64,000 nucleotides of DNA from positions 62,001 to 126,000 of the forward strand of contig CAJOEI010000005.1 in the NCBI GenBank assembly GCA_905233465.1. Direction: 5' to 3'. Shown here in pieces: positions 45,913 through 64,000 of the stretch. The notes below the pieces were generated by a model. That model saw only the letters and a list, made by a program, of their open reading frames with translations, made no database searches and was not told the origin of the DNA. This DNA is from an uncultured Bacteroidaceae bacterium (GTDB lineage: Bacteria; Bacteroidota; Bacteroidia; Bacteroidales; Bacteroidaceae). The stretch's first letter is position 1, and every line of letters begins with the position of its first letter. Position numbers and translations under genes: made by a program.

Positions 45913-48900
45913 CTATTCCTTGCACAGCACCTTCATGGTGCGTCCGTCAGCCGTGCGAATGATGTTCAGCCCCTTGCTCGCATTCTGTCGGCGACGGCCA
46001 TCGAGACCATAGACGACGATTGAAGATTGAGATGAAGCAGAGGCATCGACATCAAAGCTGTCATCGTCAAACGGCAAGCCCTCGACAAACGTGACCTCGC
46101 CATCCTCGTCCACAAACGCCGAGCGCAACCTCACGTGAGCAGCGCCGGCAGGAGGTGTGATATAAGCAGTATACGCCTTCAGCGTTGAGCCGCTGCCACC
46201 AAGCTTCAGCGCACCCGCACTGTTTACAATGCCATACATGCCCTCCATATCGAAAGCAGGATCATAATTGGCATGCATAACCCAACTAGCATATCCACTG
46301 TAGCCCGTCGTAGCAGCTTTCGAGCCAGCTGAGGCGGCAGTGACAGCGACATTCGACCAAGTCGGCATATCTATCGCAGATGCCAGATGGAGTATATAGG
46401 GTTCGTTAGCTTCAATGCTGCCATCCGTCACCTTAGAGAAATACAGCGTATAGCCGTCGGCCACGCTATAAGTCACCGTCTGCAACTGTGCCACCCAGTC
46501 ATCGTCGCTATCGTAGGCGGTGCCCACGATGGCCTCCACCGTTGTTTCAAACGGCAATGCTATGGTCGAGTAGCCAGACTTAAGGGTGCGGGAGAGAGTA
46601 ACACTGCTGTAAGATGAATAATTGATGACGGGAGCCATAGTCGGGTCAAGCACAAGCGCTGGCTTCACCACTTGGATGGTGTAAGTCTTGTTTAGTGCAT
46701 AGTAGTCATCCGTCTCTGCACGTGTCAACGTCACAGTCACAGTTCCTTCCTTGAGAGCAGTCAATGTAAAGGTGTTACTACCGAATGTTGCAGACACCAC
46801 CTGATTGTCACTGATAGTCAGTGCATCAGATGTTATTCTGGCATTTGTTCTAATAGTAATATCTGGATTGCCAATAGGGTATATATTGGTTCCCGATTCC
46901 AACAATGTGGTTGTCACCACTACTTCCTCCTTTTGAATAACAGTAAAGTATCTCGTGACGCTCACCTCGTTATATTTGTAGTTACCGGCCTGAGTAGCCG
47001 TAATGGCAATATTGGCACCACCAGCCTTGGCGGTCAAGGCACCTGTCGAGGCATCCACCTCCAAAGCAGAGGGGTTGCTGGAGCTATAGGTCACTGCCAA
47101 ACCGCTGGATGCCGTTGCCGTATTAGTCGTCAACACATCGTCCACTTCAAGGGTACGAGCATCGGCATCGAGGTCATTCACCCACGTCACTGTCTGGTCG
47201 TACTTCGAGACATTCACCGTCACGGTCTTTGTAGCTCCGTAGTGATAATCGTTTTCAAGCTGCGTCAGAGTGAGCGTAGCCGTACCCGCGCCCACTGCCA
47301 TTATCTTGTTGAGAGCCGCATCGAAGGTGGCCACACCGTCGTGCGACCAAGTGGCTGTGAGCGTTGCCTCGCTATTCTTGCCCGAGACCACATCCGAGAC
47401 TACATCATCCACCTTCAACGTCTGTTCACCAACAACAGCCAGTGTATTCGCACGCTTGGCTGCAGTAGCCGTTAGTGTTATCGTCTGCGAATAGAACAAG
47501 TCACCAATAGTAATAGTAGCCGTCTCCTCACCCAGTGCATTCGGGTCTGGCGTATAGGTAACAGTGAAGGTGCGAGTGCCATCCACACCGCAGATATACT
47601 CCGTTCCGCCAGGACTCGTGGCCTTCTTGTTACTCTCTACGGCTATTTCAGAGATGCTGGGCACAAAATGCGAGTTACTGCTACTGATATTGATGTTGCC
47701 ACCATTAGTCGAACTGTAGCTGACAGTAATGGTAGCAGAGGTTGCGGTAGTTCCTGTATAGACAGTGCCAAAGTTATCTCTGGAGGTGTCGTGTGACTCA
47801 CGGACATACGTCTTACGAGTTACCTTAGCATCCTTCATATATTTCACCAAGGTACCGCCAGCAGGGAAACGGAAACGAACATAACGTGCCGCCTCATCGC
47901 CCATTTCACACCAGAAATCATTGCTTTTATATCCGGCATCAAGACTATCATTATTTTGAATTTCGGTCCAATTGCTCCCATCAGTGGAGCGTTCAACATA
48001 TAGATTGTAATAGATTGTAATAGCCGTTCCTTTACAAGCATTATATGTTAAAGTCTCGCCTGGACCTGAAAGCGTGTATTGATGCATAACACCGGAACCC
48101 GTGCCATGAGAGTATTCGCTCTCATCGTAAAGAACGTAACCCACAGCTTCATCGGAGTTGTTCACTCGTATAGTGAATGAAGCGAAGCCAGCCTCGTATT
48201 TATAGGTCTCGGCCTGACGAATCTCATAGATATCTGTTCCTTGGCTGTTGCCAGCAGTGATGTTGCCACCCGAATAGGTAGTGTACGAACCACTTGTGCG
48301 ATTAACCGTTGGAGCTGGGCCACTGGTATTTGCATAGGTATAGGAGAGAGAAGCAGTAGCACCATACTTCAACTTGATATTAGTGGCACTACTGCCTGCA
48401 AGCGTAATCGAGATGGGGTTGCTGAGCTTCGTTACCGTAATGTCGTAGGTAGAACTGGTCCAAGCGGCATACTTATCGGTCTGGGCCTGTGTGAAGGTTA
48501 TCTTGGCAGTACCTGCATTCTGGGCGGTGATGACACCGTCGGCATAGGTGATAACATCGCTTCCATTATTGACGTTCGACGAAAGCACCTCATTCGTGAT
48601 GGTGCCCACAATAGCGGTAGCAATATTATTTTGACCCGTGAAAGTAACAGCAATCGTACCGTCTGGATTCGCCGTCATGGATGCAAGACTTGCTGCAAGG
48701 CCGTTAGGGATCCTAGTCACGGTGATGTTGTAGGTCTTCGAGGCAGAATAATGGGTAGTGTTGCCTGGGTCGTTGAGCGTCACTGTAGAGGTTCCGACCT
48801 TCAGCGCTGTCAGTGTAATAACATTGCCAGACTTTGATATGCCTACGACAGTGGGATCTGACGAAGTGTATGTGAAACCGGAAGTTGTATTCGCTACCGT

Positions 48901-50247
48901 AATGGTGGGGGCATCGTCAACATAGGATGTGTAATTGTCGCCACTGCTGCTTTGGAAACCAGATGCGTCAAACGTAGGTTGGAACTTATTGATGACCGTA
49001 AACTGGCGCGTAGCCTCCACCGCGTTGTATTCGTCGTTACCTGCCTGACGCAACGTGATAGTTATCGGATCCATTGATGCTGCAATACCAGTAACATCAC
49101 CATTAGCATTCACCGTTGCCACATTCGTGTCGCTACTCGTATAGGTAACGGCGAGACCGCTGGAGGCCGTAGCTGCTGCCAAGCCCGTATACGTTTCTCC
49201 CGCAACAACATTCGGGTCGTATGGATCTTGCGTCCACGTCAGTGTCTGATTGCTCTTGAAGTATGCGTATAAAGTTAGATTCTTCGTGGAGCCCTCTGTG
49301 GTATTCGTTATCGTTGTAGTATAAGGGTTGTCCGTCGAAACTAAGGTTGTGTGCCCTGCATCAGAATACCAGCCTTCGAAGGTACTGTTGTCAGTGGTAG
49401 CCGTAAAGGTGGCGGTAGTGGACTTCTGTGTGTCGCTTACTGCACCTACGATTTGACTATTTGTGACCGTAGCCGTAGCCGTCCCGTGATTATATATTTT
49501 GTTGGCAGTAGCCGAGAACTTGAAGACGGGAAGACCTGTACCACTAACAGGGAACGAAACCGTTTTGCCATTGGTGGATGTTAACGTACAAGTACCCGAC
49601 TGAACACCAACCTTTGTGGGCGAGAAGGTAATCTTGACATTCATCGTACCCGTCTCGCCTGTGGTTACAGCCGTTACGGTGAAGTCGCTAAGCGTATTTC
49701 CACTACCGTCCTTACAAACGCCAGTCACCTGATGATTATAGGTTGTATTATTATAGGTAATGCTGGCATTCAGTTCCTTTGATGAGCCTTTATTCACATC
49801 GCCAAAGGCAAGACTGGTAGTAGTGGTGGAGAAAGTTGTAGCACGGGTTATCTTAACATTCTTGTAATACCTTTTGTAACTTCCACCATTATCAAAGCGA
49901 ACATAACGAATATTGGTATTGTTTAAATCATAAGAGAAACTTTTATAACTATTTTTATTTAACTCACCCACTTCTATTGACTTAAATGTCGTCCAATTAC
50001 TTCCATCTGTTGACACCATAATGTTCAAATCACCAACGGCAGTACTCATCGTCTTATAAGCTTCGAAACTTAATTTTGCTCCTGGGCCAGACATTGTCAA
50101 CTTTGTGCCCTCACTCCAATTTCCAGTATTCCTCTCTGTAGCGTCGTTAAGAACATAGCTCGTGGATTCACCCCAGGCCCATGCGCCAGTAGACCACGCA
50201 AGTGCGAGGATTATAAGAAGGATAATATGTTGAAATCTTTGATTCAT
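45913..50247 (-). CDS. Very large secreted protein with BIG2-like Ig repeats and T9SS-like C-terminal signature
   Basis: Signal peptide, repeated VTYTSSDTNVATVNANGDVTG-type modules, C-terminus SIVVYGLDGRRRQNASKGLNIIRTADGRTMKVLCKE. Confidence 0.8.
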   Translation of the reverse strand: MNQRFQHIILLIILALAWSTGAWAWGESTSYVLNDATERNTGNWSEGTKLTMSGPGAKLSFEAYKTMSTAVGDLNIMVSTDGSNWTTFKSIEVGELNKNSYKSFSYDLNNTNIRYVRFDNGGSYKRYYKNVKITRATTFSTTTTSLAFGDVNKGSSKELNASITYNNTTYNHQVTGVCKDGSGNTLSDFTVTAVTTGETGTMNVKITFSPTKVGVQSGTCTLTSTNGKTVSFPVSGTGLPVFKFSATANKIYNHGTATATVTNSQIVGAVSDTQKSTTATFTATTDNSTFEGWYSDAGHTTLVSTDNPYTTTITNTTEGSTKNLTLYAYFKSNQTLTWTQDPYDPNVVAGETYTGLAAATASSGLAVTYTSSDTNVATVNANGDVTGIAASMDPITITLRQAGNDEYNAVEATRQFTVINKFQPTFDASGFQSSSGDNYTSYVDDAPTITVANTTSGFTYTSSDPTVVGISKSGNVITLTALKVGTSTVTLNDPGNTTHYSASKTYNITVTRIPNGLAASLASMTANPDGTIAVTFTGQNNIATAIVGTITNEVLSSNVNNGSDVITYADGVITAQNAGTAKITFTQAQTDKYAAWTSSTYDITVTKLSNPISITLAGSSATNIKLKYGATASLSYTYANTSGPAPTVNRTSGSYTTYSGGNITAGNSQGTDIYEIRQAETYKYEAGFASFTIRVNNSDEAVGYVLYDESEYSHGTGSGVMHQYTLSGPGETLTYNACKGTAITIYYNLYVERSTDGSNWTEIQNNDSLDAGYKSNDFWCEMGDEAARYVRFRFPAGGTLVKYMKDAKVTRKTYVRESHDTSRDNFGTVYTGTTATSATITVSYSSTNGGNINISSSNSHFVPSISEIAVESNKKATSPGGTEYICGVDGTRTFTVTYTPDPNALGEETATITIGDLFYSQTITLTATAAKRANTLAVVGEQTLKVDDVVSDVVSGKNSEATLTATWSHDGVATFDAALNKIMAVGAGTATLTLTQLENDYHYGATKTVTVNVSKYDQTVTWVNDLDADARTLEVDDVLTTNTATASSGLAVTYSSSNPSALEVDASTGALTAKAGGANIAITATQAGNYKYNEVSVTRYFTVIQKEEVVVTTTLLESGTNIYPIGNPDITIRTNARITSDALTISDNQVVSATFGSNTFTLTALKEGTVTVTLTRAETDDYYALNKTYTIQVVKPALVLDPTMAPVINYSSYSSVTLSRTLKSGYSTIALPFETTVEAIVGTAYDSDDDWVAQLQTVTYSVADGYTLYFSKVTDGSIEANEPYILHLASAIDMPTWSNVAVTAASAGSKAATTGYSGYASWVMHANYDPAFDMEGMYGIVNSAGALKLGGSGSTLKAYTAYITPPAGAAHVRLRSAFVDEDGEVTFVEGLPFDDDSFDVDASASSQSSIVVYGLDGRRRQNASKGLNIIRTADGRTMKVLCKE

Positions 50248-50353
50248 TATCTACGGTCTATCTGGCGTGTGAGTGTCAGACCTACGTTGGCCATCTCCTC
50301 GTTAGTGCCAGTATCAGGGGAACCAGGATTACTTAGTGAGGCCTAGGATAACC

Positions 50354-51094
50354 CTAATCAAACTCGCCGGTATGCGTTCCGGCAGCTATGGGAATGATGG
50401 TGCCGCTGACAGGGTCAGCGGTGAGGTTTATGGTGTATGCCTTTGCGGCTTCAAGGGTCATGGAGCCAGGGACAGAGAGATCGGTTACGTGGCTGCCGGC
50501 GAGGGCGGCGGCAGAGATGGTGTAGTTTGTTGCGCCAGCAGGGAAATACACCGTCTTAGATGTCTCGTTTGAAGCGAAGGTGACGGTGCGCGTTCCTATT
50601 GTTAGCGTCGGTGCTCCATAGAGCGCCGTGAATGAATTGTTAAGGGTGAATGTCACTCGGGAATTCTTTGGTGCTCCGAGTGCAATGGCGATGTTGGCGG
50701 TTGTGCCTGGATTGAGTGTGAACTCAGCAGACTGGCCGCTATAGTAGGGCATGCCAAGACCTGTTGTAGAGGCCTCGAGGTTCTCTGCCAGCAAATCGTA
50801 TGTACCAGCTGCGGCATAGCCGACAAGGGTGGTGCCCGTAGGCATCATGGTTATTTCCTGTTTCTGCGATTCGTCGCCACCAGGCAGGAGATAGAACTTA
50901 TACCCTGTGAAATCAGTCAGGGTGGCGCGGGTCTCGGCATCTACATAGATGTCGTTGCCGCCTATAGAGAGCACGATGCAGCCCATCTCCTCAGTCGGTG
51001 TTACAGGACTGAGGTCTTCTTGCTGACAGCCATAGAACATGGCGATGAATGCCAGCATAAGGAAATGTAAGATGTGGCGTGCAGATGCGTGCAT
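50354..51094 (-). CDS. DUF4493-like lipoprotein
   Basis: Lipobox MFYGC-QQED; MGCIVLSIGGNDIYVDAETRATL N-terminal module. Confidence 0.7.
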   Translation of the reverse strand: MHASARHILHFLMLAFIAMFYGCQQEDLSPVTPTEEMGCIVLSIGGNDIYVDAETRATLTDFTGYKFYLLPGGDESQKQEITMMPTGTTLVGYAAAGTYDLLAENLEASTTGLGMPYYSGQSAEFTLNPGTTANIAIALGAPKNSRVTFTLNNSFTALYGAPTLTIGTRTVTFASNETSKTVYFPAGATNYTISAAALAGSHVTDLSVPGSMTLEAAKAYTINLTADPVSGTIIPIAAGTHTGEFD

Positions 51095-51123
51095 CGTGAT
51101 GTATTTGATGTTTGAAGATTATT

Positions 51124-51175
51124 CTCCAGATGCTTTGCTGTATCCGTAATTGTGGATGCAACAAAACATCTGGAG
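51124..51175. repeat. Stem-loop between two lipoprotein genes (17-bp arms, 15 paired)
   Basis: CTCCAGATGCTTTGCTG ... CAACAAAACATCTGGAG. Confidence 0.75.
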
Positions 51176-51187
51176 TTTCAGAAGAAA

Positions 51188-51967
51188 TTATACTTCGTTA
51201 CCTGTAGCAGCATCAATGGTGATTGTGCTGGTTTCGCCAGTTGTGTATTCATCATCATAGGTGATGGTGACACTTATAGTACCATTGCTGTTGCTTGCGA
51301 TGGTGAGAACGCTGGCAGAACCTGCGCCGCCGAGAGTGAATGTTTTAGCAGCAGAGGTCTTTGTGATGCCGTTAATAGTGTAAGTAATGGTATAAGTCAG
51401 CTCTGCAGATGCGGCAAAGAAGGCATCGTTATCGATTGTGCTATTCGCCTTGTCAAAGGTTAGCGTGCGCGGAGCGGAGACGTTGACAGTAAGAGCTGTT
51501 CCGCTGAAGCCAGCAGAGGCAATAGAGAACTTAGCATTCTTAGCCATGCCGCACTCAATGGCGACGTTGGTGGTGTTACCGGCAGTCACGGCCTGGTTTG
51601 ACGCATTGCCCTCGTAATAGGCAGCACCAAAGCCGTCATTAGCCGTGAGCCAATCATCATCATCAGCGAAATTAGAAACTGCCACGTTGTAACTACCGGC
51701 TGCCAATGGCGTAGTACCTAAGGTCGTGCCAATAAGGGCCTTTGCAGCAACTGTTCCGAATACGGGGTCGCCATCTCCATTTGTCACGACAGCATACCAC
51801 TCTGCTACGTTGGCATTCTGTGTGGCACGTGTTGCGATGGCATCATCGATTGTCACGCCGAGTTTGATATACCCCTTGTTCTTGTCGAGGTATCCGTCTT
51901 CGCTTGTGCATGCATTGAAACTTACAAATGCTGCGACAGCCAGTGCGATAGTAAATAACTTTTTCAT
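51188..51967 (-). CDS. DUF4493-like lipoprotein
   Basis: Lipobox SFNAC-TSED; GYIKLGVTIDDAIATRATQNA module. Confidence 0.72.
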   Translation of the reverse strand: MKKLFTIALAVAAFVSFNACTSEDGYLDKNKGYIKLGVTIDDAIATRATQNANVAEWYAVVTNGDGDPVFGTVAAKALIGTTLGTTPLAAGSYNVAVSNFADDDDWLTANDGFGAAYYEGNASNQAVTAGNTTNVAIECGMAKNAKFSIASAGFSGTALTVNVSAPRTLTFDKANSTIDNDAFFAASAELTYTITYTINGITKTSAAKTFTLGGAGSASVLTIASNSNGTISVTITYDDEYTTGETSTITIDAATGNEV

Positions 51968-52018: not shown

Positions 52019-52897
52019 TTATTCGAGTGTTATTTCTTCTGTGGATCCTTCGGTGAAGTGGTCATCATAGGTGATGGCCATGAGGGAGATGTTGCCCGTG
52101 GATGGTTGGGGGGCGTTGAGCTTCACTTCGAGGCGTGTTATCTTGCCTGCTTGTAGGGTGAGTGTGCGTGTGAGGCGCACTGTGCCGTCCCACCCTGCAG
52201 AGGCGGTGATGGTGAGTGCTACGTCGGCAGTGAGCTGGCCCACCCCCGACCCCTCCCCAAGGGAGGGGAGGGAAGTGTTGTAGTATGCTACGGCGGGCCC
52301 CACCCCCGACCCCTCCCCTGTTAAGGAGGGGAGTGTTGTGTTGGCGGGGAAAGCGTTGTCGGCGTTGAACTTCAATGCACGTGTGTCGGCTGTGGTGACG
52401 GCATACTCTGTGAAGTAGCTTGTAAAGCTGTCGTCGAAGGTGACGCACAGTCCGGCGTTGGCCATCGTGCACGGCACTGTGACATGTGTTGTCTGTCCCT
52501 CGGTGATGGCGAATGGAGCGGAGCTGCCCGCGTAGCGTCGCGCACCCCAACCGCTGTTCAGGCTCTCAGCATCAGCTGCGCTGATATTCTCTGCACTGAC
52601 GACATATCCCGTGCCAAGGGGCTGTGTGCGGTCGGCAAGGGTGATGTCGGCAAATGGTATGTTCTCCCATATAGTCTCTGTGGCAGAGTGGAGAGTGACC
52701 CTGTATGCGGCAGCCTCAGCGTCGGTGAGCTGGCGTGGCGCACGGGTCACGATGTCTGCCGTGAGGCTATCTGTGGCCAGCTCAAAAGCAAAAGTACCAC
52801 GCCCAGCAGAGGGACTGGGTTGTTCTCCAATGCATGCTGTGAGTAGTATGGCACAGAGAGCAGTGAGTACGTAGCTTCGTAGCGCGAGGTTTGACAT
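52019..52897 (-). CDS. DUF4493-like lipoprotein with two in-frame GC-rich repeat insertions
   Basis: Start set at MSNLALRSYVLTALCAILLTAC; contains LPSLTGEGSGVG and LPSLGEGSGVG. Confidence 0.72.
   Translation of the reverse strand: MSNLALRSYVLTALCAILLTACIGEQPSPSAGRGTFAFELATDSLTADIVTRAPRQLTDAEAAAYRVTLHSATETIWENIPFADITLADRTQPLGTGYVVSAENISAADAESLNSGWGARRYAGSSAPFAITEGQTTHVTVPCTMANAGLCVTFDDSFTSYFTEYAVTTADTRALKFNADNAFPANTTLPSLTGEGSGVGPAVAYYNTSLPSLGEGSGVGQLTADVALTITASAGWDGTVRLTRTLTLQAGKITRLEVKLNAPQPSTGNISLMAITYDDHFTEGSTEEITLE
52237..52275 (-). repeat. GC-rich palindromic repeat, copy 1 (CCCACCCCCGACCCCTCCCC-AA-GGGAGGGG)
   Basis: Direct reading within the 52019-52897 CDS. Confidence 0.85.
52296..52333 (-). 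repeat. GC-rich palindromic repeat, copy 2 (CCCACCCCCGACCCCTCCCCTGTTAAGGAGGGGAG)
   Basis: Direct reading within the same CDS. Confidence 0.85.
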
Positions 52898-52901
52898 ATT
52901 G

Positions 52902-55487
52902 TTAGTTGGAGTACTGGAAGAAGAGTTTATAGACCTTTGAACATGTGGCACCTGAGCCATAGCTGCCTTCGCAGGTTACATAGGTAACATTGGCAGACGT
53001 GGTGAAGATTTCGACTCCGGTGTTGTGAACGTCGTTGTTATATTTGCTTTCGGTACATGTCACGATAGTCTGGTCTCCTGCCTTGACATTGGCTTCAGTG
53101 TTGACAGCGGCACGGTGTAGGACGATGTCATAGTCAAGTGACATCCTTATTCCTGCCGGAATGTTGAACCATGAGCTGTTCTTGATGCGGTGGGGCTGGC
53201 TCAGAGAATAGTTGCCAAGTCGTACGTGGTCAGAGTTGAAGTTTGTTGTTCCTTTGTCGTTGGCCCATCCTGTCGCCTCTGTTGGAGGTGTGAAGTTTGC
53301 TGGAAGGCCTGTGATGCGGAACTGCTTGCTGGCACTGACCGTCTCACCGCCGAAGTTGGCTGTAACAGAGAATGTATATAACGAGCCGCTGACTGGTACG
53401 TTGGTATAGTCTGCCCACGAGGGAGAATTTGTGGACTCGGTTGTAGTGGCGCTCTGTCCGTTACATGAGCGTGTGAAAGTGCGTGTGTAGTTGGTGTTGG
53501 TCATCAGCGATGGAGCTACGCTGATATGTGCCGAAGGTGCATAGAATGTAAGTCGATCGCAGTCGTTCGCGGCTGTGACATCGCCAGCCTCATACTTGGT
53601 GTGTGCGCTGTAACCATCAACGGTGAGTGTCAGTGTTGGAGCTGGGACGGTGAACGTTGTTGTAGCTACGCGGCTGCTGCCGTTGGAGGCGGTGAAAGTG
53701 TAGCTGACGGTATAGCTGCCTTTGGGCAGATATGGCCATGTAGTGTCGGTATGGTCAGAGGTCAGGTCGCCTGTGCCAGAGACGGTACGCACCGCCGTTC
53801 CAGATGAGTTCTTTATTGTTGCACTCCACACACGGCCTTCGATGGGAGCGTCAGTGAGTGTCACGCTTGTGCCCTGCAGTACGCCGCCATCATAGACATG
53901 TGTGGCTGTGACGGAAGGCGTGGATATGAGGTCTATGGTTCCGAGGTCATAGATGTGGCTCGCAGTGCCGCCGAAGGTGGTCGTCGAGGTCTGGGTATAG
54001 GTGCGTCCGTCGCAAGTGTATGTGAGCGTGAAACCAGCGAGCTGCACCGGTGCGGAAGCGATGTAGTATGTTCCGGCCTCAAAGGTATTAATTCCCTGTG
54101 GCGGCAGGATGGTGATGGTGGTGCTCTCTGTGGATGCTATTGTCGCAGTTGGATGTTGACCGCTGTAGTCAATGCCTATCCTTCCGGCGATGGGTGTGGT
54201 GGCAGTGAGGAGTATGCTGCGTATCTTGTCCTCGGCGTATGCTGGTATGTCGAAGCGCAACAGCTGTGTGGTGTTGTAGAAAGTGAGCATTGCCGGACTG
54301 CCATCGAGATTGCGCGAGCCCTTGGCCACGGAGATGTTGAGAGCTGATGCTATATTGCCTGCCACGGCGTACTGCGTCGTTGGCAAGGTGGCAGCAAGTG
54401 TGGCAGCCGATGTTGCAGCCTCAGCTGCAAGCCTGTAAGGGTATATAGCTGCGAAGTTCTGCGTGCGGGCTGTCACCTGTCCAGCGAAGCGTGCCTGATT
54501 GCCATTGACGTCGGTAGCAGTGAAATTGCGCCGTGTGGACTGGAAGTCGTACACAGCCACAACATCGCCACTATCCCAGTTGACAATGGTGCCGTCCGTG
54601 CCGAGTGTGGCGCGTGTGTCTATCACAGCATCATCCAGCGTAAAGCTCTCATGCACAGCATTGAACTCTGTCGTGCCGTCTTCTACAGTTATGTCGCTGT
54701 CGGTGATATTGATGACATCCGTAACGAACACGTCCTGTTCATCAATGGTGATGTTGAAGTCGAAATAACTGATATCGTATTTGAAGTTAAGGCTGCTAAC
54801 CTTGGCCTGCTTGATGTCGATGGTGCCTTCTTTGACTATCGTCTTAGGCCCAATGGCGGTGATGGTGTACGTAATCTGACGGTTAGTGCCATCATCGTCA
54901 AGGTTGAAGTATGCCGTGCGTCCAGCTGTCGCGGCGTTGTAAACGATAGTGCGGTCGCCATCGTGAATAGTGACATAGTAGTCGGAGGTGAAATACTCGG
55001 CCATGCTCTGGTCGAAGGTAATCTCCACTGCGGCATTGACAACGGAACAGCCCACATTGACAGATGTTGTCTGACCGGCTTTGATGGCAAATGATCCTGA
55101 TAGGCCTGCAAAGCGCTTCTGTCCCCAGCCATCGTTCAAGGTGATGGCTTCCTGCTTGGTGCAATTCTCGGCCATAACACGATAGCCATAGCCTGCTGGC
55201 AGACTGGTGTTGAGACTGCCAAGACGTGTGGCGGAACGCACGATGTCACTACCTTTGTATATGGTTACGAGGAAGTTATTGGCTTCTTCCTGTGTGATGA
55301 CAGTGGTGGTGGCACGCGTGGGTGTCTGACCTGTGAAGATGAGCTCGAAGTTACCGAGGCTGTCAGCAGGCACATCAACTGGAGCATCGACGGGCATGCT
55401 ATCGGAGCTGCAGGCCACAAAGAGCATTACCACGACCAGAGCGCAGCAGACGCTGAATGCACGTATTATGGAGTGGATGCGCTTCAT
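52902..55487 (-). CDS. DUF4493-like lipoprotein fused to a fimbrillin-like domain and a C-terminal beta module
   Basis: Lipobox LFVAC-SSDS; fimbrillin-like IVNWDSGDVVAVYDFQSTRRNFTATDVNGNQARFAGQV...NFAAIYPY; C-terminal module shared with 56206-58026. Confidence 0.72.
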   Translation of the reverse strand: MKRIHSIIRAFSVCCALVVVMLFVACSSDSMPVDAPVDVPADSLGNFELIFTGQTPTRATTTVITQEEANNFLVTIYKGSDIVRSATRLGSLNTSLPAGYGYRVMAENCTKQEAITLNDGWGQKRFAGLSGSFAIKAGQTTSVNVGCSVVNAAVEITFDQSMAEYFTSDYYVTIHDGDRTIVYNAATAGRTAYFNLDDDGTNRQITYTITAIGPKTIVKEGTIDIKQAKVSSLNFKYDISYFDFNITIDEQDVFVTDVINITDSDITVEDGTTEFNAVHESFTLDDAVIDTRATLGTDGTIVNWDSGDVVAVYDFQSTRRNFTATDVNGNQARFAGQVTARTQNFAAIYPYRLAAEAATSAATLAATLPTTQYAVAGNIASALNISVAKGSRNLDGSPAMLTFYNTTQLLRFDIPAYAEDKIRSILLTATTPIAGRIGIDYSGQHPTATIASTESTTITILPPQGINTFEAGTYYIASAPVQLAGFTLTYTCDGRTYTQTSTTTFGGTASHIYDLGTIDLISTPSVTATHVYDGGVLQGTSVTLTDAPIEGRVWSATIKNSSGTAVRTVSGTGDLTSDHTDTTWPYLPKGSYTVSYTFTASNGSSRVATTTFTVPAPTLTLTVDGYSAHTKYEAGDVTAANDCDRLTFYAPSAHISVAPSLMTNTNYTRTFTRSCNGQSATTTESTNSPSWADYTNVPVSGSLYTFSVTANFGGETVSASKQFRITGLPANFTPPTEATGWANDKGTTNFNSDHVRLGNYSLSQPHRIKNSSWFNIPAGIRMSLDYDIVLHRAAVNTEANVKAGDQTIVTCTESKYNNDVHNTGVEIFTTSANVTYVTCEGSYGSGATCSKVYKLFFQYSN

Positions 55488-56203
55488 AGACTGATATCAG
55501 TGTTTTCGGTCTCCATATCATCGGTGATGATGATGTCCACGCCGCCGGAAGTGGCATTGGAGTCATAGCTGTAGCTGACGGTGAACACCTTGCCAGCTTC
55601 GATGTCTGGAAAGTCGATTGCAGAATGTGAGTGTGTGACGTTGTCGGTGTTGGTGGCGCGCAGTGCATAGCTGAAACCGCCTTCGGCAACGGCGAAATAT
55701 GCCTTTTCACCCTCGTTGATGGTCACGGTGCGTGTGCCGCTATGCAGGGTGAAGGTGTATGAACTGAAGAGTTCGTGGAAGTGCTCCGGTAGGGCGAGAC
55801 TGACGGCATAGTTAGTCATCGGTACGTCAAGACGCATACGGAACACCATATCATTTTCCATTGAGAACGTTGTCTCAGCATAATAGCATGCTGTGCCTTT
55901 CCCGCTATTGGCCGTGGGCCATGAGGTCTGGTTGTCTGTGTATGCTCGCAGAACAAAGTTGCCTGGGGCGAGTACAATCTTTGCGGGTACGGTGCCTGCA
56001 GCATAATGGTTGAGCAGTGTGCCTTCGTCATCAAGGATATCCACGCAGAGGTCATCGTCCACAGCGCGCGTAGCAACGGCTGGATGGCCGGCACGAGACA
56101 GCTCCAACTCGAGCACACCCGTGGCCAAGGTCATGTCGTCCTGCTGCTGACAACCTGTCAACATGACTATACACATTATTATATATATATATAGGCGACG
56201 CAT
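55484..56203 (-). CDS. DUF4493-like lipoprotein
   Basis: Start set at MRRLYIYIIMCIVMLTGC; stop overlaps next start (ATGA). Confidence 0.7.
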   Translation of the reverse strand: MRRLYIYIIMCIVMLTGCQQQDDMTLATGVLELELSRAGHPAVATRAVDDDLCVDILDDEGTLLNHYAAGTVPAKIVLAPGNFVLRAYTDNQTSWPTANSGKGTACYYAETTFSMENDMVFRMRLDVPMTNYAVSLALPEHFHELFSSYTFTLHSGTRTVTINEGEKAYFAVAEGGFSYALRATNTDNVTHSHSAIDFPDIEAGKVFTVSYSYDSNATSGGVDIIITDDMETENTDISL

Positions 56204-56205
56204 GA

Positions 56206-58026
56206 TCAATGGTTAGCGTATTTTAGTGTGAAGGAGTAGATATGTGAGCACGTCTGTCCAGCGCCATAGTCGTTGTAGCAATGAATATTTGTGGCGTATG
56301 CATTATCATCATGGAACGTGTCTGTGGTGCCGGAATAGAGGTGATCTGTATCACGGAAAGGTGTTCCCGCCTCTTCTTGTTTGAGAATTTCTGTATTTCC
56401 TACCTTAATTGAGAGATATGTACCTATGGTGAAAGTATGCACATTGATGCTGTAGTCGGCACAGAAATATGTAGATGGCGGTATGCAGACGGAAGTGTTA
56501 GTCTGGATGTACTGACTTCCTGTGCTGAGGTGACCAAGGCGGACATCATTGTCAAACCAGTCTACGCCGCCACTGGATTCCCATTCATCGTGACTCTTCA
56601 GATTAAGAGAGTATGGCAGACCCGTAATGATAAGGTCGCGTTGGGCGCTGGCCGTGACTCCGTCGAAGGTGGCTTCAGCACGCAGCACATGGGCCTCACG
56701 TTGTACAGCCTGATTGGTCTGGTTGCCAGGGTTGCAGATATTGCTATTAGCAGGGATGGATAGCGATGTCCCGTCGTATGTGCAGGTGAAGGAGTGGCTG
56801 TAGTTGCTGTTCTGCAGCAGTGTCGGGCTGACGTTGAACTTTGCAGATGGCTCGTAGACCGTGACTCGTTCGCAAGCATTTGCAGCGTCTATGTCGCCTT
56901 CGAGGTACTTGGAATATGAGGTGTAGCCAGTGGTGGTGACGCTGATAGTGGGTGCTGTGACGCTGAAGTCACGGCTGCTGGCAAAGGTGGCCTGATCGTT
57001 GGCATCCAAGAGATAGTAGCTGGCTTTGTATTGCCCTTGCGGCAGATATGGCCATGTGCTGTTGTTGGTGTAGTCCGACTGTAGCGGTCCTGTACCCTCC
57101 ACGGCACGCACTGTCGTACCGGCGGCATTGGTGATGACAGCCCGCCACTTCATGCCCGGATAGCTCTCGGTGATGATGAGGTTTGTGCCGACAAGGTTGC
57201 CAATTTTGTCATACTGATGCATGGGCAACACCATAGCCACAGGCAACCATGAGAGAGGTATTGTCTCGTCGAGTGTGATTTCTGTCATTTCCACTTTGCT
57301 GATGGCGACGGTCATTGCGCTCTCCGGGTCAGGCAAAGTGAGGGTGACTTGTGCGTGGTCGGCGGCTGATAGCGTGGAGGGCATGTCGGTCGATGTGAGT
57401 GTCGTTGACACCTCGCGGTCGTTCTCCATTTTCAACTTGCCCCAGAAACGCAGCGTCACCTGACTGCCGGCACGTACATATACGCTCTTGGCAGGAGCTT
57501 CTTTTGTGATGGGGATGGAGAAGTTGCCAACATTCACGTACAAAGCATAGTCACTGTAGAAGCGGTCGAAGCGCTGCTGCTCGACAGCGTCGGATCCGAA
57601 GCGCGCCGAAATGAGAGCATTGGCCACACGTGCCGTGAGGTTCACTGTTGTGGTCTGATCAGCATCCACGGTGGCTGTTTGCTCAGCAAGATAATATGGC
57701 TTGTCCATCCCTATCACGGGATTCTCACCGTATGTGGCGCTGATGGCGTACTGTCCAGTCGGCAACGTGAAGGGCTCATCAGTGAACGTACCGTCGTAGA
57801 CATCACGTCCCGCTGAGTTGGTTACAGTGAGATGGAAGTCAGCTGCAGTTGGCACGCCGAGGTCGGCAGGTATGGAACGCGTGGCCGTATAGACATTAGG
57901 CATCGCCAACTGCAGCTGGCCCATGCCGCCAGCTGCGGGAACATCCACGTCTGCACTGCAAGCAGCAAATGTTGCAGCCAGCAATGCAAACAGTGTGATA
58001 TGTCCTATGACGTTCCTAAGTCTCAT
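56206..58026 (-). CDS. DUF4493-like lipoprotein with C-terminal beta module
   Basis: Lipobox TFAAC-SADVD; GQLQLAMPNVYTATRSI; C-terminal module paralogous to 52902-55487. Confidence 0.72.
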   Translation of the reverse strand: MRLRNVIGHITLFALLAATFAACSADVDVPAAGGMGQLQLAMPNVYTATRSIPADLGVPTAADFHLTVTNSAGRDVYDGTFTDEPFTLPTGQYAISATYGENPVIGMDKPYYLAEQTATVDADQTTTVNLTARVANALISARFGSDAVEQQRFDRFYSDYALYVNVGNFSIPITKEAPAKSVYVRAGSQVTLRFWGKLKMENDREVSTTLTSTDMPSTLSAADHAQVTLTLPDPESAMTVAISKVEMTEITLDETIPLSWLPVAMVLPMHQYDKIGNLVGTNLIITESYPGMKWRAVITNAAGTTVRAVEGTGPLQSDYTNNSTWPYLPQGQYKASYYLLDANDQATFASSRDFSVTAPTISVTTTGYTSYSKYLEGDIDAANACERVTVYEPSAKFNVSPTLLQNSNYSHSFTCTYDGTSLSIPANSNICNPGNQTNQAVQREAHVLRAEATFDGVTASAQRDLIITGLPYSLNLKSHDEWESSGGVDWFDNDVRLGHLSTGSQYIQTNTSVCIPPSTYFCADYSINVHTFTIGTYLSIKVGNTEILKQEEAGTPFRDTDHLYSGTTDTFHDDNAYATNIHCYNDYGAGQTCSHIYSFTLKYANH

Positions 58027-58032
58027 TAGCCT

Positions 58033-59763
58033 TTACTCATAAAGCAGTTCCATATTGTCAATCTGCAGCAGGCTCTCCTCGCCGCCGGTGAAGTAGTCAC
58101 CGTATTTGGACGATGACGCCACGACGATGATTGTTGAGGGCTGACGGTCGCGCACGCGATAGTTGATATCAACGGTCTGCGTTGTCCATGTGCTGATATC
58201 CTTGCCGCACGAATACTGTCCAAAGGCAATCAAATGACTGTCGTTCATGTCCATGAGGTGCAGGGCCGACGGTCGTGTGCGGATGAGATAGCGGCACTGT
58301 GTACCCTTGTAGTCAACGGGCTCCCAGTCACCAAGTGCTACGTAGATGTTGCATGTATCGGGTTGTCCCTTGAGCCCTTCATATAGTTGGCGGGTGATGT
58401 AATTGCCGTAGGCTTCCTTCCACTCACCGCCTGTGCGGGTTATAGTGCTGGTGCGATACTTGAAGTCGAAGCGCAGCTTTGTGGGGAATGACGTGAACGG
58501 ACGTCCGAAGTTGAGCACACCATTGGTGCCATCGGTCTCAAGATATTCGCCTGTGAAGATATTGCCTGCAGCGAACTTGATGACGATGTACTTCGACTGC
58601 AAGTTGGCAAAACGCCGTCCGCCTTCGTCAACGTATGTGCTGTTGCTGGCACCAACGGTGGTGGCACCGTGGTTGCCTGTGTCCCAATAGCTTTCTGCTC
58701 CCTCGGCCCACGGGCAATAGAGTGCACGTGTGCCGCTGCCCTCGATATGCCAGTCATCAAAGCTGCCGTTCGGCAACTGCTGTGGTGCCACGGTGGTGAA
58801 GGTCTGCACACTTGTGGTGGCCTCGCCTGCTGTGACTTGGTACTCGTATGTACCGCCTGCCACAAGGCCCGTGAGTTCGGCTACATAACGTGTGTTGTTC
58901 ACGGCAATCTGTCCTGTGGGCAGCACAGTCCACTCAGCATCACCCTGACGGCGATACTCCACTTTGGGTGCTACGCCCGAGGCACATTGGCCGCTGATGG
59001 TGGCGGTGACACAGCGTGCAAAGGCCGTCGCCGTGGCTTGCTGCTGGGCTTCGGTGTGGTAGACGAAGACCCTCCAGGCTGCCGTGCTGCGCCCATTGCC
59101 CGCGGTGATGGTGAAGGTGCGCATCTCGCTGAAGTCGTAGGTTGGTGTCTCCGTGGGGTCAGGAGCCACGACACAGTGCTGTCCTGCCGGACGGAACTTC
59201 TGCACAGCCACGGCACTTAGGTCTTGGTTAGCAGCAACATAGACGATTACATTGTGGTTGACATTGTCTATGATAGCATCACCCACCTGACCTGCCATCT
59301 GCACTTCGGGGATTATGACTTGCTTGACACGTATGCGCCATGTATAGTCCTGATATGTCGTCAAGGTGAATTTGGCCTCACCCTGCGTGAAGTCTACATG
59401 TGTGTTGTCTGTCGAAGCCGGACGTTCGAAACCCTGCGTAGGGAACTCTGACGGGCGTAGGCAGTTGTCAGCGGGCTGTATGGTGGCGTCATTGCTCACT
59501 TCCATGCGAATGATGCGCACGGCAGCGAGGTTGACAGTGTCGCTGACAAAGACATCAATGGTGGCATCGTTCTTGTTGATAGTTGCAGCGGCAGCCTCGG
59601 TATCGGTCTCGTTGCACTGGCCAGACACCTGGAAGGCGGTGATTGCAGCCTCGACAATGGGATATGGTATGTCATCCTTGATGGCGCACGAAGTGATGCT
59701 GCCCGCCGTCACAGCGAGAAGCATGACATTGCTGATGGTGCGTATTGTGGATTTTATTGTCAT
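58033..59763 (-). CDS. PCMD-like (putative carbohydrate metabolism domain) lipoprotein
   Basis: Lipobox SITSC-AIKDD; FN3-like segment then NGSFDDWHIEG...YWDTGNHG...LQSKYIVIKFAAGNIFTGEY. Confidence 0.78.
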   Translation of the reverse strand: MTIKSTIRTISNVMLLAVTAGSITSCAIKDDIPYPIVEAAITAFQVSGQCNETDTEAAAATINKNDATIDVFVSDTVNLAAVRIIRMEVSNDATIQPADNCLRPSEFPTQGFERPASTDNTHVDFTQGEAKFTLTTYQDYTWRIRVKQVIIPEVQMAGQVGDAIIDNVNHNVIVYVAANQDLSAVAVQKFRPAGQHCVVAPDPTETPTYDFSEMRTFTITAGNGRSTAAWRVFVYHTEAQQQATATAFARCVTATISGQCASGVAPKVEYRRQGDAEWTVLPTGQIAVNNTRYVAELTGLVAGGTYEYQVTAGEATTSVQTFTTVAPQQLPNGSFDDWHIEGSGTRALYCPWAEGAESYWDTGNHGATTVGASNSTYVDEGGRRFANLQSKYIVIKFAAGNIFTGEYLETDGTNGVLNFGRPFTSFPTKLRFDFKYRTSTITRTGGEWKEAYGNYITRQLYEGLKGQPDTCNIYVALGDWEPVDYKGTQCRYLIRTRPSALHLMDMNDSHLIAFGQYSCGKDISTWTTQTVDINYRVRDRQPSTIIVVASSSKYGDYFTGGEESLLQIDNMELLYE

Positions 59764-59784
59764 TCTTTTTGGTTGGTGTGAAGC

Positions 59785-60963
59785 TTATAGGTAGAATGTC
59801 AGGCCGAGGTTTATACTCAGGAGGTTGAACTTGAAATTGGCACCTCCGCTCTGGCTCTTGCCAGACTCGATGCGGTTGGTGTGCTGATCCTGCCATCGGT
59901 ACTTCAGACCCATGATGCCTATGCTGGCCTCTGCTGCGAGGAAGTCAGTCACGAAGGCTGCCATACCCGGGCAGAAGCTGAGTTTGATGGTGTGGGTGTG
60001 GCCGTATGAGCCGTCGTAGTCAGCACCGCTGCCGGTACTGTTCTTGCCTGTGGTGTAGGCGTATGAACCACGTATCTCTCCGAAGAAGCCAAACATCTTG
60101 CTGCGACCCAGCGGCATGTATGTACGCAGGAACATTGCGCCTTCATGGGTGTGTTCGAGGTAGTAGAGGTCTTCGAGCGAGATGTTGAAATCCTCACCCA
60201 GATTGAGGTCGAAGGAACCCAAGTAGAAGTAGTTGCGGCTGTAGCTGTAGCGTCCGCCAAGAGCCAGGTTGTTGGCCACAAAGTAACCGAAGTAGGGACT
60301 GGCAGAGAAGGTATGTCCTTCGATGTTCATATCCTTGAGCACAAGGAGGTTGATGTTATCGGTATCCCACTCCTGATAGTTGAACGTAGCACCCAGCAAC
60401 CATTGCTTCTTGGGCACGAAGACAGCCTTCAGCATCTCACGGTCCACACGCTGTATGTGTCGTTTCTTCTGCGAGCGGTCCCATAACTGCTCAGCACGGG
60501 TTCGTGGCTCAAAAATGCTATTGCTTCCAGAATAACCCTGCATCTGCAACGCCCGCATGACACCTCGCTGCACAGCCTGCTCGATGACGCTGTCTGGGAC
60601 AGAACCTGTGTAGACCATCTCACGCTGGTCGAGCACTGCGGCGGACAGTGTGTCATACTTTGTCACATAGGCAGTGTCTTTCTTCTCGACAATCACGGTG
60701 TCGCGCTTGGTGACCACCATGGTGTCGCGGCGTGCCACGACCATCTGTCCGGGCTGCAGCTCAGCACCTCGCGAGACAAGTATGCCGGCATCCTGCATCA
60801 CCATGCGTTGCTGCGGTTGCAGCTGCGACTGCGAGCGCGCTGGCTGGCGTCCCTGGGTGACCTGCCGCGACGAGCGACGCATCACTTTGGACTGCGAGAT
60901 GGCTGCTGCCGGCATCAGAACCAGCAGCAGCCATAACAGGTATCTATTTGGTTGCGAAATCAT
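59785..60963 (-). CDS. Outer membrane beta-barrel protein with repetitive periplasmic N-terminal region
   Basis: Signal peptide, RRDTMVVTKRDTVIVEKKDTAYVTKYDT repeat, then alternating beta-strand pattern ending LGLTFYL. Confidence 0.78.
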   Translation of the reverse strand: MISQPNRYLLWLLLVLMPAAAISQSKVMRRSSRQVTQGRQPARSQSQLQPQQRMVMQDAGILVSRGAELQPGQMVVARRDTMVVTKRDTVIVEKKDTAYVTKYDTLSAAVLDQREMVYTGSVPDSVIEQAVQRGVMRALQMQGYSGSNSIFEPRTRAEQLWDRSQKKRHIQRVDREMLKAVFVPKKQWLLGATFNYQEWDTDNINLLVLKDMNIEGHTFSASPYFGYFVANNLALGGRYSYSRNYFYLGSFDLNLGEDFNISLEDLYYLEHTHEGAMFLRTYMPLGRSKMFGFFGEIRGSYAYTTGKNSTGSGADYDGSYGHTHTIKLSFCPGMAAFVTDFLAAEASIGIMGLKYRWQDQHTNRIESGKSQSGGANFKFNLLSINLGLTFYL

Positions 60964-60968
60964 TACAT

Positions 60969-62750
60969 TTACTGAACGGTTGGAGTGTCGCCGTAAACCA
61001 TTTCGAAGTCGTCGAGGTAGAGGACAGAAGAGTCTGAGCCATAGAAGTAATCACCATACCTCGAGCTGGAGCAGACGATGATGAGATGTGTCGGCACCTT
61101 GGTGAGGCTATGATACTCAAGCGGAATATCGAATTCCTTCCATTGTCCGTTGGAGTTCACGCACTGGCTTGCGGGCAGTGTGCCATAGGCCACAACGCGC
61201 GGATCGGTATTCCAGTTGGGGAACTCATCCATCTTGGTGTTGTCAATCTGAATCACCTCTGTGGTGAGCACGCAATAGATCTGGCATTGGTCATCTTCGC
61301 CCTTGGCTGGTGCACCACTTGGCTGTGTACCACGGTTAATAGATCCAGGAGCATACTGGAGGTAGCCATGCAGGCTTGTGGGACGACCGTTGAATGGAAC
61401 ACCCCAGTTGAGGACTGCGCCCCTGGTACCTACGAGATGGTCAAACTGTCCGGTATACAAGCTGGCAGCAGCAAACTTGATAATGACATACATGGACTGC
61501 AGCTTGGCAGCATACGTGCCGCTGCGTACAGGTGATGTCGTGCTTGTGGTGACGTTGTAGCTATCGCCCATGCTGGCTGAACCAGGATTGGAGCTGTCCC
61601 AATATGTAGTACCTTGAGCATTCGGGTACCAGATGCTGCCGTCCTTCCACCAGTTCTCGAAGCCGCCGTTGTACAGTGCGGGTTCGCTGCCTGTGGTGAA
61701 GTTGACTTCATTGCTGTTCACGGCTGCATCTGTAGTCGTGTAGACGAAGCGGTAGGTATAGGCTGTCTGCGGTGTCAGACCAGTGAGCTTATAGCTGTAG
61801 TTGTCGCCGCTGACGGTGAGCTGGTCATTAGCCACGGTTGTCCAGTCAGTAGCGTTCTGCTGCTTCCACTGCAGTGTGACGCTTGCAGGATCAAACTCCG
61901 AAGTCTTGGCTGTAACCATGCCCGTGAGGTTAGCAAAGTGTCCCCATGCGCTGATGTTGTTGGCCTGCAGTGCAATGCTGCTCTTGCGAGGCACTTCAAT
62001 AGTGTATGTGTAGGACTGCGTAGCATCGTCAACCTTAACAGTTACGCCACCCATGCTACCTGCATCAGCAATCCTATAAGTGATGATGTAGTGGTCGCGT
62101 GCCTTGACGTTCTCGATGGTATTATCCTGCAGGTGGGTTGCACCGTTGCTCTTGCTGGTGACATGCACCATGAGCGTGAGGTTGCCAACAGGGAAGTAGG
62201 CCGAACCCACTGTGCTACCCATAGTAAATGTACGCGGAGCAACACCTTCCATGGCAGACTCCACAATAGTAGTAGCCTTGGAGAAGTATGTACGGAAGCT
62301 CTCATCGTAGTTCACTGTCACCTTGACGTTGGCCTGTGTCAGCGTGAGGCTGGCTGTAGTGAGCTCCTTGGCACGCACTGTCACGGTGGTGAAGCCTGAG
62401 TAGAATGGCGTTCCAAAGCCAGAATCACTGCCATCCCAGTTCGAGGAGTGAGCATCAATGGTGTAATTACCGGGCTGCAGGATTATTGTTCCCTGAAAAT
62501 CGCTGGCATTGGCAAAGTCATCGGTCTGCATGAGGACAGTACCCTGTGCATTACGGATTTCCACATGCAGCTTCTTGGCGTTGTAACCGTTTGGTACACC
62601 AGTTACTGTACGCGTGTTTGTTGAAACAAGAGTGTTTATGTCAAGCTTCAGATAGCCCTGTTCCTCGACCTGGTCGATGTCGGTGCTGCTGCACGATGTT
62701 ACAAGGAGAGCAGCAACGAAGGCTGTAAGAATAGAAAATATCTTTTTCAT
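60969..62750 (-). CDS. DUF4493-like plus PCMD-like lipoprotein
   Basis: Lipobox LVTSC-SSTDIDQ; GYLKLDINTLVSTNTRTV; C-terminal NGGFENWW...YWDSSNPG...LQSMYVIIKFAAASLYTGQF. Confidence 0.8.
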   Translation of the reverse strand: MKKIFSILTAFVAALLVTSCSSTDIDQVEEQGYLKLDINTLVSTNTRTVTGVPNGYNAKKLHVEIRNAQGTVLMQTDDFANASDFQGTIILQPGNYTIDAHSSNWDGSDSGFGTPFYSGFTTVTVRAKELTTASLTLTQANVKVTVNYDESFRTYFSKATTIVESAMEGVAPRTFTMGSTVGSAYFPVGNLTLMVHVTSKSNGATHLQDNTIENVKARDHYIITYRIADAGSMGGVTVKVDDATQSYTYTIEVPRKSSIALQANNISAWGHFANLTGMVTAKTSEFDPASVTLQWKQQNATDWTTVANDQLTVSGDNYSYKLTGLTPQTAYTYRFVYTTTDAAVNSNEVNFTTGSEPALYNGGFENWWKDGSIWYPNAQGTTYWDSSNPGSASMGDSYNVTTSTTSPVRSGTYAAKLQSMYVIIKFAAASLYTGQFDHLVGTRGAVLNWGVPFNGRPTSLHGYLQYAPGSINRGTQPSGAPAKGEDDQCQIYCVLTTEVIQIDNTKMDEFPNWNTDPRVVAYGTLPASQCVNSNGQWKEFDIPLEYHSLTKVPTHLIIVCSSSRYGDYFYGSDSSVLYLDDFEMVYGDTPTVQ

Positions 62751-62770
62751 TGTTCTTTCGTGCTTTTTAT

Positions 62771-64000
62771 TTATTCGACAGTGAGGGTTAGGGTGCCGTT
62801 CTTCTTCGTGCCGTTCATGTCTTCAACTACCATGTTGAAGGTGTGCTGACCGGAGAGGAAGCCGAGCAGTCCGAAGAAATTACCAATTGGGAATGTGTAG
62901 TCGATATCACCTGCGCTGGGCACGGAGAGCGGCTGGTTGAGGTCGTTGAAAAGCTGAACCACGCTCTGGTTGTCTACGATCTCGGCTCCGTTGATGAAGT
63001 CGACACCATAGTTGGTGTTCAGGCCACCGAGAGACTCAATCATCTCGTCGCTGGTGCTGACGATGCTGACCTTGATGCTCTTGATGCCGTTGTCACACTT
63101 GATGTATGTGTCGCCGAGGCTCTTGTCTGTGCCAGCGTTGACGGTCATGTTCTGCGGCAGGTTGAGAGTAATGCTGGTATCGTCACCACCTGCACTGGGA
63201 TCATCACCACCTGAGGGATCGTCGCCACCGCCAGGTGTCAGTGTGCCGTTGTCGCCTACTTCAAGGCTTACGGGCTGTGTGGTCTCATCGAAGGTCACTG
63301 TGGCAGTAATGGTAATGCCAGTGACGTGACCGCTGGTGCTCTCCACAGGAGTGAAGTTGATGACGATGCCATCGCCGCCAGTGAAGTTTTGGCTGTCGTT
63401 GTCATAAGACTCAGCAGCCACAGTCTTTGTCAGCACGTTGCGGGCACTCACTGTAGAACCGTCCTGAGTGGTACCACGGAAGTTGAGGGTCAGCTGTAAG
63501 ACGTTCTCCTCAAAGAGCCAGTAGACAGGATTAGGAGTAGTGCCGTCGTTGTTTGTGAAGGAGAGAGCAATGTTCGACTCGCTACCGTCATCAAGGGTAA
63601 TCTCCCATGCGGTGAATACCTCGAGGAAGTCGGCGTCGTAGGAAACAGTAATCTTGGAGTTCTGCATCTTGCACACCACCTCGACATTGGTGGTGACATC
63701 CTTCGTGATCTCCATCGCGGTAGAACCTTTATAATAAGGCGTAGTCATCTTCTTCTGGATAACGCCGGGGGTATGGCTCTCTACGGTGTAGTTGCCAACG
63801 GAAAGGAGGTAGCTCGAAGGCACTTCGCTCACGGTGTTCCAACTGACGACCTGCTGTCCGCCGTCATTGTATACCACAACGGGATAGTTATCAACCTCAG
63901 TCACGGCACGCGTTGCTGCCGGTTCGAGCTGAGTGACGCTGAGTGCCATGCGTCCACTGCCTTCAGCGAACTTGGCATTCTGGTCAGCATCGAGATTCTC
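62771..64000 (-). CDS. DUF4493-like protein, 5' end beyond the window
   Basis: Frame stays open upstream of 63949 (ENLDADQNAKFAEGSGRMALSVTQLEPAATRAV); linker GGGDDPSGGDDPSAGGDD. Confidence 0.7.
   Translation of the reverse strand, partial: ENLDADQNAKFAEGSGRMALSVTQLEPAATRAVTEVDNYPVVVYNDGGQQVVSWNTVSEVPSSYLLSVGNYTVESHTPGVIQKKMTTPYYKGSTAMEITKDVTTNVEVVCKMQNSKITVSYDADFLEVFTAWEITLDDGSESNIALSFTNNDGTTPNPVYWLFEENVLQLTLNFRGTTQDGSTVSARNVLTKTVAAESYDNDSQNFTGGDGIVINFTPVESTSGHVTGITITATVTFDETTQPVSLEVGDNGTLTPGGGDDPSGGDDPSAGGDDTSITLNLPQNMTVNAGTDKSLGDTYIKCDNGIKSIKVSIVSTSDEMIESLGGLNTNYGVDFINGAEIVDNQSVVQLFNDLNQPLSVPSAGDIDYTFPIGNFFGLLGFLSGQHTFNMVVEDMNGTKKNGTLTLTVE

Follow-up and report, generated by a model that had tools for sequence, protein, structure and literature searches.

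A DUF4493 lipoprotein and barrel locus of Bacteroidales that probably encodes a divergent type V pilus

Type V pili, represented by FimA and Mfa1 (PF13149), are built from surface lipoproteins that are cut by a protease of the clostripain type or by Arg-gingipain; the cut removes the first strand of the subunit and opens a groove for the C-terminus of another subunit (PMC12632263, PMC5954841, PMC11316588). Precedents include the cleavage of pilins that are surface lipoproteins by clostripain (PMC12632263), as well as processing by Arg-gingipain and export of Mfa5 by the type IX secretion system (PMC5954841), and a rule has been given for the surface-export signal, an acidic N-terminus after the lipid-bearing cysteine (PMC5080379). 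In the S-layer pair Bt1926–Bt1927 of Bacteroides thetaiotaomicron, a lipoprotein is accompanied by a predicted eight-stranded barrel, for which a role as anchor or as secretion partner has been suggested (PMC12578637). Proteins of the PCMD family (PF13201), which includes BT2081, have a jelly-roll domain with a conserved putative sugar pocket and occur in polysaccharide-utilisation loci (PULs; PMC2954218). Here we analyse a lipoprotein locus, rich in the domain DUF4493, in a 64,000-nucleotide stretch of DNA (hereafter the window) from an uncultured Bacteroidaceae bacterium. Its probable product is a divergent type V pilus of the FimA/Mfa-like kind, with DUF4493 proteins as subunits.

The window corresponds to bases 62001–126000 of contig C5 in a draft Bacteroidales genome of 2.54 Mb, comprising 57 contigs and 85% complete. 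The eleven consecutive minus-strand genes listed in the original prediction, which had been made from these letters alone, are all present at 45913–64000 in an uninterrupted run. The contig continues for 906 bases beyond the window, to 126906; this extra segment supplies the start of gene B and most of gene A, a further DUF4493 lipoprotein truncated by the contig end, which brings the locus to approximately twelve genes. Lettered A–L in transcription order, those within the window are as follows.

Gene B, 62771..64000 with its 5' end beyond the window, minus strand: 431 amino acids (aa) on the contig; lipoprotein (CVSEN); DUF4493 (158 bits), then a conserved C-terminal immunoglobulin (Ig)-like domain; TR at the position of the putative cut site.
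Gene C, 60969..62750, minus strand: 593 aa; lipoprotein (CSSTDID); DUF4493 (150.6 bits), FN3-like domain and PCMD jelly-roll (159.6 bits); putative lectin and candidate adhesive subunit.
Gene D, 59785..60963, minus strand: 392 aa; predicted outer-membrane beta-barrel with approximately 8 strands and an N-terminal extension that varies; possible outer-membrane platform.
Gene E, 58033..59763, minus strand: 576 aa; lipoprotein (CAIKDDIPYP); PCMD only (130.6 bits), lacking the TR site; possible permanent lipid anchor.
Gene F, 56206..58026, minus strand: 606 aa; lipoprotein (CSADVD); DUF4493 and a C-terminal domain that resembles that of gene H when read by eye.
Gene G, 55484..56209, minus strand: 239–241 aa; lipoprotein (CQQQDD); single-domain DUF4493.
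Gene H, 52902..55487, minus strand: 861 aa; lipoprotein (CSSDS); DUF4493, fimbrillin-like, Ig-like and C-terminal domains.
Second domain of gene H, 53910..54719, minus strand: related to Mfa_like_1 fimbrillins by hhalign (TRATLGTDGTIVNWDSGDVVAVYD).
Gene I, 52019..52960 with a likely start at 52897, minus strand: lipoprotein (CIGEQ); single-domain DUF4493 with two in-frame palindromic inserts.
Gene J, 51188..51967, minus strand: 259 aa; lipoprotein (CTSEDG); single-domain DUF4493 with the conserved C-terminus ITIDAATG.
Gene K, 50354..51094, minus strand: 246 aa; lipoprotein (CQQED); single-domain DUF4493 ending in GTHTGEFD, without the last strand of the other subunits.
Gene L, 45913..50247, minus strand: 1444 aa; Sec-secreted protein with Ig-like repeats and, at its C-terminus, a type IX-like tail; loosely linked to the locus.

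Intergenic gaps had been described as mostly 0–22 bp, which holds for the upstream part, where those from gene B to gene I measure 20, 5, 21, 6, about 2, −4 and 4 bp (the last, between H and I, using the start of gene I at 52897), but not for the 3' end, where the last three measure 51, 93 and 106 bp; genes A and B are 47 bp apart. Scans of the locus for promoters and terminators returned a signal equal to that of shuffled sequence and are uninformative on operon structure. The eight lipoproteins with acidic residues shortly after the cysteine that had been proposed (C, E, F, G, H, I, J and K) were all confirmed, and genes B (CVSENLDAD) and A (CVSEDHD) bring the number to ten. The locus products are presumably displayed at the cell surface. 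Pfam searches bore out the earlier family assignments, with DUF4493 in nine genes (A, B, C, F, G, H, I, J and K) and PCMD in C and E. Outside these nine genes the genome has no DUF4493 match. Because the domain is confined to the locus in this way, and because other genera and families show the same order of genes, the clustering goes beyond chance.

The evidence for a pilin-like subunit begins with the predicted fold of DUF4493. The Protein Data Bank (PDB) was found to hold no solved structure of this domain, the best match (E 0.009) being unrelated, and AlphaFold2 models were built from an alignment of only the window's eight DUF4493 domains. The model of the gene C domain reached a predicted local distance difference test (pLDDT) score of 71 and a predicted template modelling score (pTM) of 0.70, and that of the whole mature gene J protein reached 70 and 0.68, respectively. 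When the gene C model was compared with the PDB, its best twelve matches were all Bacteroidales fimbrial or 'cell adhesion' proteins, among them 3r4r, 3ufi, 3up6, 3gf8, 4gpv, 4h40, 3sy6 and 5cag, with the Mfa2 anchor 5nfi and the FimA prepilins 6jzk and 6jzj lower in the list. Among the matches listed, a query template modelling (TM) score of at least 0.40 was obtained only for the type V pilin class, and scores outside this class did not exceed 0.30. The gene J model gave a weaker result, with 3ufi as its best match; all listed matches with TM of at least 0.39 were type V, and other Ig-like proteins matched only at low TM. These models make it highly likely that DUF4493 adopts the two-domain, transthyretin-like fold of type V pilins.

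The N-terminus of the mature proteins carries a second feature of fimbrillins. The lipid-bearing cysteine is followed by an acidic linker, a strand of the GxLxLxI type and then T-R-A; T27 and R28 are two of the four invariant columns among the window's eight DUF4493 domains, which share only 19–27% identity, and in both AlphaFold2 models T-R lies in a low-confidence loop immediately after the first strand. Across the sampled DUF4493 proteins, the motif [ST][RK][ASGTV] occurs in 131 of 155 N-terminal windows, as against 118 of 616 windows of equal length further downstream in the protein. The residue at the site is Arg in 81 of 82 proteins of the window's own family (f1) and Lys in 8 of 8 in another (f9). 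Amino acid composition was rejected as an explanation for this difference, as R/(R+K) in the remainder of the domain is 0.40 in both. The genuine Mfa_like_1 fimbrillins of the window's genome show the same N-terminal layout with TRA, and across genomes with both families of protein the Arg or Lys preference of DUF4493 mostly agrees with that of Mfa_like_1 (Arg in both in f1, f108, f26, f59 and f67; Lys in both in f77 and f104). Judged by this pattern, we are fairly confident that T-R is a trypsin-like processing site like that of fimbrillins. The original prediction had seen no protease in the locus; a suitable peptidase of the C11 family is encoded elsewhere in the genome. The genome also encodes one C25 peptidase, which we read as PorU from its size and C-terminus.

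Several loci connect DUF4493 to fimbrillins directly. The second domain of gene H aligns with the Mfa_like_1 profile (hhalign 95.6%, E 1.3e-8). In locus L037 and other relatives, gene H is seen as one fused lipoprotein in some species and as two lipoprotein genes, DUF4493 and fimbrillin-like, in others; in genome G031, the separate counterpart of its second domain scores 31.5 bits against PF13149, above the cut-off of 27, although hmmscan of the same protein omitted this match. In a genome of another family (G369), the locus opens with an unambiguous Mfa_like_1 fimbrillin gene (PF13149, 62 bits), directly adjoined by DUF4493, DUF4493, DUF4493-PCMD and barrel genes in that order. Separately, contig C29 of the window's genome carries an ordinary pair of Mfa_like_1 fimbrillins (L048 and L049), and since this pair is present, the organism probably produces one or more classical type V pili as well.

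To describe the distribution of the locus, 61 relatives and, separately, 393 Bacteroidales genomes drawn from across the order (206 genera) were searched. Among the relatives, 14 contain DUF4493, and the barrel has a matching distribution save for one genome each way. In the wider sample, DUF4493 is present in 46 genomes (approximately 12%) and 27 of the 206 genera; 33 of the 34 genomes with a strong barrel match also contain DUF4493 (Fisher p = 3e-36). Within the window's genus, the order A-B-C(DUF4493-PCMD)-barrel-E(PCMD)-F-G-H-I-J-K is held position by position, with species-specific losses and up to nine DUF4493 genes per locus. This conserved order and co-occurrence uphold the earlier proposal of one multi-subunit locus, and the synteny favours a joint function of its genes. 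Most genomes of the genus lack the locus, and its flanking genes are shared only by one pair of close species; because they otherwise differ between genomes, the locus appears to be an accessory block inserted at varying sites. In other families, the usual arrangement is a five-gene core (DUF4493, DUF4493, DUF4493-PCMD, barrel, PCMD), in which the first protein is either approximately 850 aa long with a PCMD-like end or short, the second measures approximately 425 aa, the DUF4493-PCMD protein 550–730 aa, and one or two barrels accompany a PCMD-only lipoprotein. In family f26 the barrels form a pair that sometimes lies away from the locus (G174 and G413). From these gene orders, the core appears to be old and to have been enlarged in the window's genus.

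Some further observations concern individual members. Many loci of other families (L113–L120 and others) have two adjacent barrels of approximately 244 and 290 aa in place of the single one. A lone DUF4493 protein of approximately 430 aa, with no strong barrel match in the genome, was found in G043, G078, G153, G166, G188, G246, G283 and G421, perhaps a separate use of the domain. In gene I, a palindromic G-rich element (...GGGAGGGGTCGGGGGTGGG) at 52240–52335 occurs twice in frame and encodes LPSLxGEGSGVG; orthologues are approximately 42 aa shorter than the window's gene I, and a 19-mer of the insert is also found twice in locus L070 of another genome. Directly upstream of gene A, the relative G002 has 30-nt inverted repeats of 93% identity placed 456 nt apart (L028:786-815 and 1272-1301), possibly bounding an invertible promoter segment. 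As no such repeats were seen upstream of gene A in the four other relatives checked, phase variation was rejected as a general feature of the locus.

The barrel and the PCMD proteins distinguish this locus from described pili. Gene D matched no Pfam or NCBIfam model above cut-off and no PDB sequence convincingly; the outer-membrane barrel that had been predicted is nevertheless recognisable in its aligned family, which, read by eye, displays approximately eight amphipathic strands and a terminal FYL. PCMD relatives with solved structures include 3hbz, 4het and 4jrl, and because the jelly-roll of this family has a conserved putative sugar pocket, genes C and E probably bind glycans. Gene E is the sole lipoprotein of the locus with neither DUF4493 nor a TR site, and a PCMD-only gene stands beside the barrel in nearly all loci. 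The processing motif occurs in just 6 of 27 PCMD-only homologues, even over a longer window. Directly after the lipid-bearing cysteine, PCMD-only proteins have C-x-(x)-NDIPYP or a similar sequence, which is kept from family to family to a far greater extent than a mere export signal would require. With the motif missing from most of these homologues and the lipid-proximal segment so well conserved, gene E would keep its lipid and is likely a permanent lipid anchor. That barrel D and gene E together form the base of a fibre is a more tentative suggestion. Among the remaining subunits, the C-terminal domains of F and H could be adhesins. The short subunits carry conserved C-termini of their own (IEVPVxWI in A, ITIDAATG in J), whereas in complete orthologues of gene K the last strand is missing and the protein stops at or close to GxHxGEFD. 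These C-terminal features would fit a hetero-polymer of fixed order in which K occupies one end, and they are the sole indirect hint of donor-strand exchange between subunits.

The fold, the site, the synteny and the lipoprotein signals are computed; we infer cleavage, strand exchange, the order of subunits and the base of D and E. Each DUF4493 subunit would be synthesised as a lipoprotein and delivered to the outer membrane, where the acidic signal after the cysteine would cause it to be flipped outwards. A trypsin-like surface protease of the C11/clostripain type, encoded elsewhere, would then cleave on the C-terminal side of the conserved basic residue, which is Arg or, in some families, Lys, stripping off the lipid together with the first beta-strand and opening a groove into which another subunit would insert its C-terminal strand. 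Glycan-binding or tip roles would fall to the long subunits B, C, F and H, which bear Ig or jelly-roll domains including PCMD, and shaft or adaptor roles to the short subunits A, G, I, J and K. Uncut lipoprotein E would retain its lipid and, with barrel D, fix the base of the fibre in the membrane. Formation of a fibre by these products seems somewhat more probable than not.

Compared with type V pili as described, the locus shares lipoprotein prepilins with acidic residues after the cysteine, a first beta-strand and an Arg/Lys-small site, the predicted two-domain fimbrillin fold, a multi-gene organisation with longer subunits, fimbrillin domains within some locus copies and a C11 protease in the genome. 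It differs in that its main subunits are DUF4493 proteins lacking a profile match to PF13149, no Mfa2/FimB-type anchor gene was found in the locus, an outer-membrane barrel and PCMD jelly-roll proteins are among its constant components, and up to nine non-identical subunits are present. Part of this evidence weighs against a type V pilus. Alignment of the DUF4493 and Mfa_like_1 profiles gives hhalign 2.7%, that is, no sequence-profile match, and the case consequently rests on fold and site; the TM scores of just 0.4–0.54 imply a distant relation, and the models, with pLDDT near 70, rest on eight sequences. The agreement in Arg or Lys preference is imperfect (G241, G156 and G404 are discordant and f87 is mixed), the Mfa2/FimB anchor family (PF08842) was not matched among the locus proteins scanned, and the descriptions consulted of the fim and mfa loci of Porphyromonas gingivalis mention no barrel. 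In addition, PCMD relatives are known from PULs (PMC2954218), which is compatible with glycan capture without a fibre. These differences could also be taken to mark a separate class of fibre, in which as many as nine different DUF4493 pilins, each in one copy or a few, are assembled in a set order, with a jelly-roll lectin tip and with the barrel and PCMD lipoprotein replacing the Mfa2/FimB anchor, although we regard this as doubtful.

Glycan capture deserves attention in its own right. Fimbrillin-fold and PCMD lipoproteins might sit on the barrel singly or as a small assembly, binding polysaccharide with no fibre involved, as suggested by the conserved putative carbohydrate pocket of PCMD and its occurrence in PULs (PMC2954218), by its structurally solved relatives (3hbz, 4het, 4jrl and 3s30) and by the position of C and E, which flank the barrel in most loci. 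However, the conserved Arg/Lys site would remove the lipid from every DUF4493 subunit, the predicted fold is pilin-like, and up to nine DUF4493 subunits exceed what such a complex would need. BT2081 and its relatives accompany SusC-like porins in PULs (PMC2954218), whereas here PCMD is combined with DUF4493 and a small barrel; as the original prediction had stated for SusCD, no SusC/SusD pair was found in the locus, nor was a glycoside hydrolase or a sensor. We therefore consider glycan capture without a fibre unlikely. An S-layer-type coat, in which a lipoprotein lattice is held by an eight-stranded barrel, is more unlikely still. Here too a barrel adjoins lipoprotein genes, as in Bt1926–Bt1927, and the two systems may work alike at the anchor step, though they belong to different families. 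That pair has a single lipoprotein, a phase-variable promoter and neither DUF4493 nor PCMD. Homology was rejected on both components by way of the orthologous locus of B. faecis (L046), found through an exact primer match: its Bt1927 orthologue is a coiled-coil-like protein of 940 aa without DUF4493 or PCMD, and the Bt1926-type barrel belongs to PF16961, which the window barrel does not match (hhalign 5.9% between the two). Many unequal subunits with cut sites are, moreover, ill-suited to a one-protein lattice. Finally, nine DUF4493 paralogues in a row, varying in copy number between species, might be independently acting surface lipoproteins, such as antigenic decoys, clustered through duplication alone. 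This explanation is very improbable given that orthologues can be matched position by position between species, with length and C-terminus conserved at each, that the barrel and the PCMD-only gene hold their positions across families, and that co-occurrence with the barrel is near-complete.

Gene L is the least certain member of the locus. The giant Ig-like protein that had been foreseen was recovered, with matches to Big_2 and weak ones to choice-of-anchor-D; it has no lipobox, and its tail resembles that of other presumed type IX cargo of the window's genome. It recurs downstream of the locus in several relatives, but the association is inconstant. As a large type IX-like cargo adjoining a pilin-like operon, gene L recalls Mfa5 of the P. 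gingivalis mfa locus, from which it differs in this inconstancy and in that no VWA domain was found.

The original prediction had discerned no known system in the locus. This view no longer stands, since an N-terminal strand followed by TRA is the layout of type V prepilins and the DUF4493 models match type V pilins. Its description of the apparatus as undescribed may hold for the DUF4493/barrel variant, as a search of the available papers by the names DUF4493 and PCMD found no mention of either, which leaves room for a prior placement of DUF4493 among fimbrillins; the general kind, type V pili, is known. Taken in this way, the DUF4493/barrel locus looks like a so far unrecognised variant of type V pili. 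If this is correct, it would assign a function to DUF4493, add a barrel-linked branch to type V pili and account for a domain carried by approximately 12% of the sampled Bacteroidales genomes, in commensals whose surface fibres matter for adhesion to mucus, food particles and phages.

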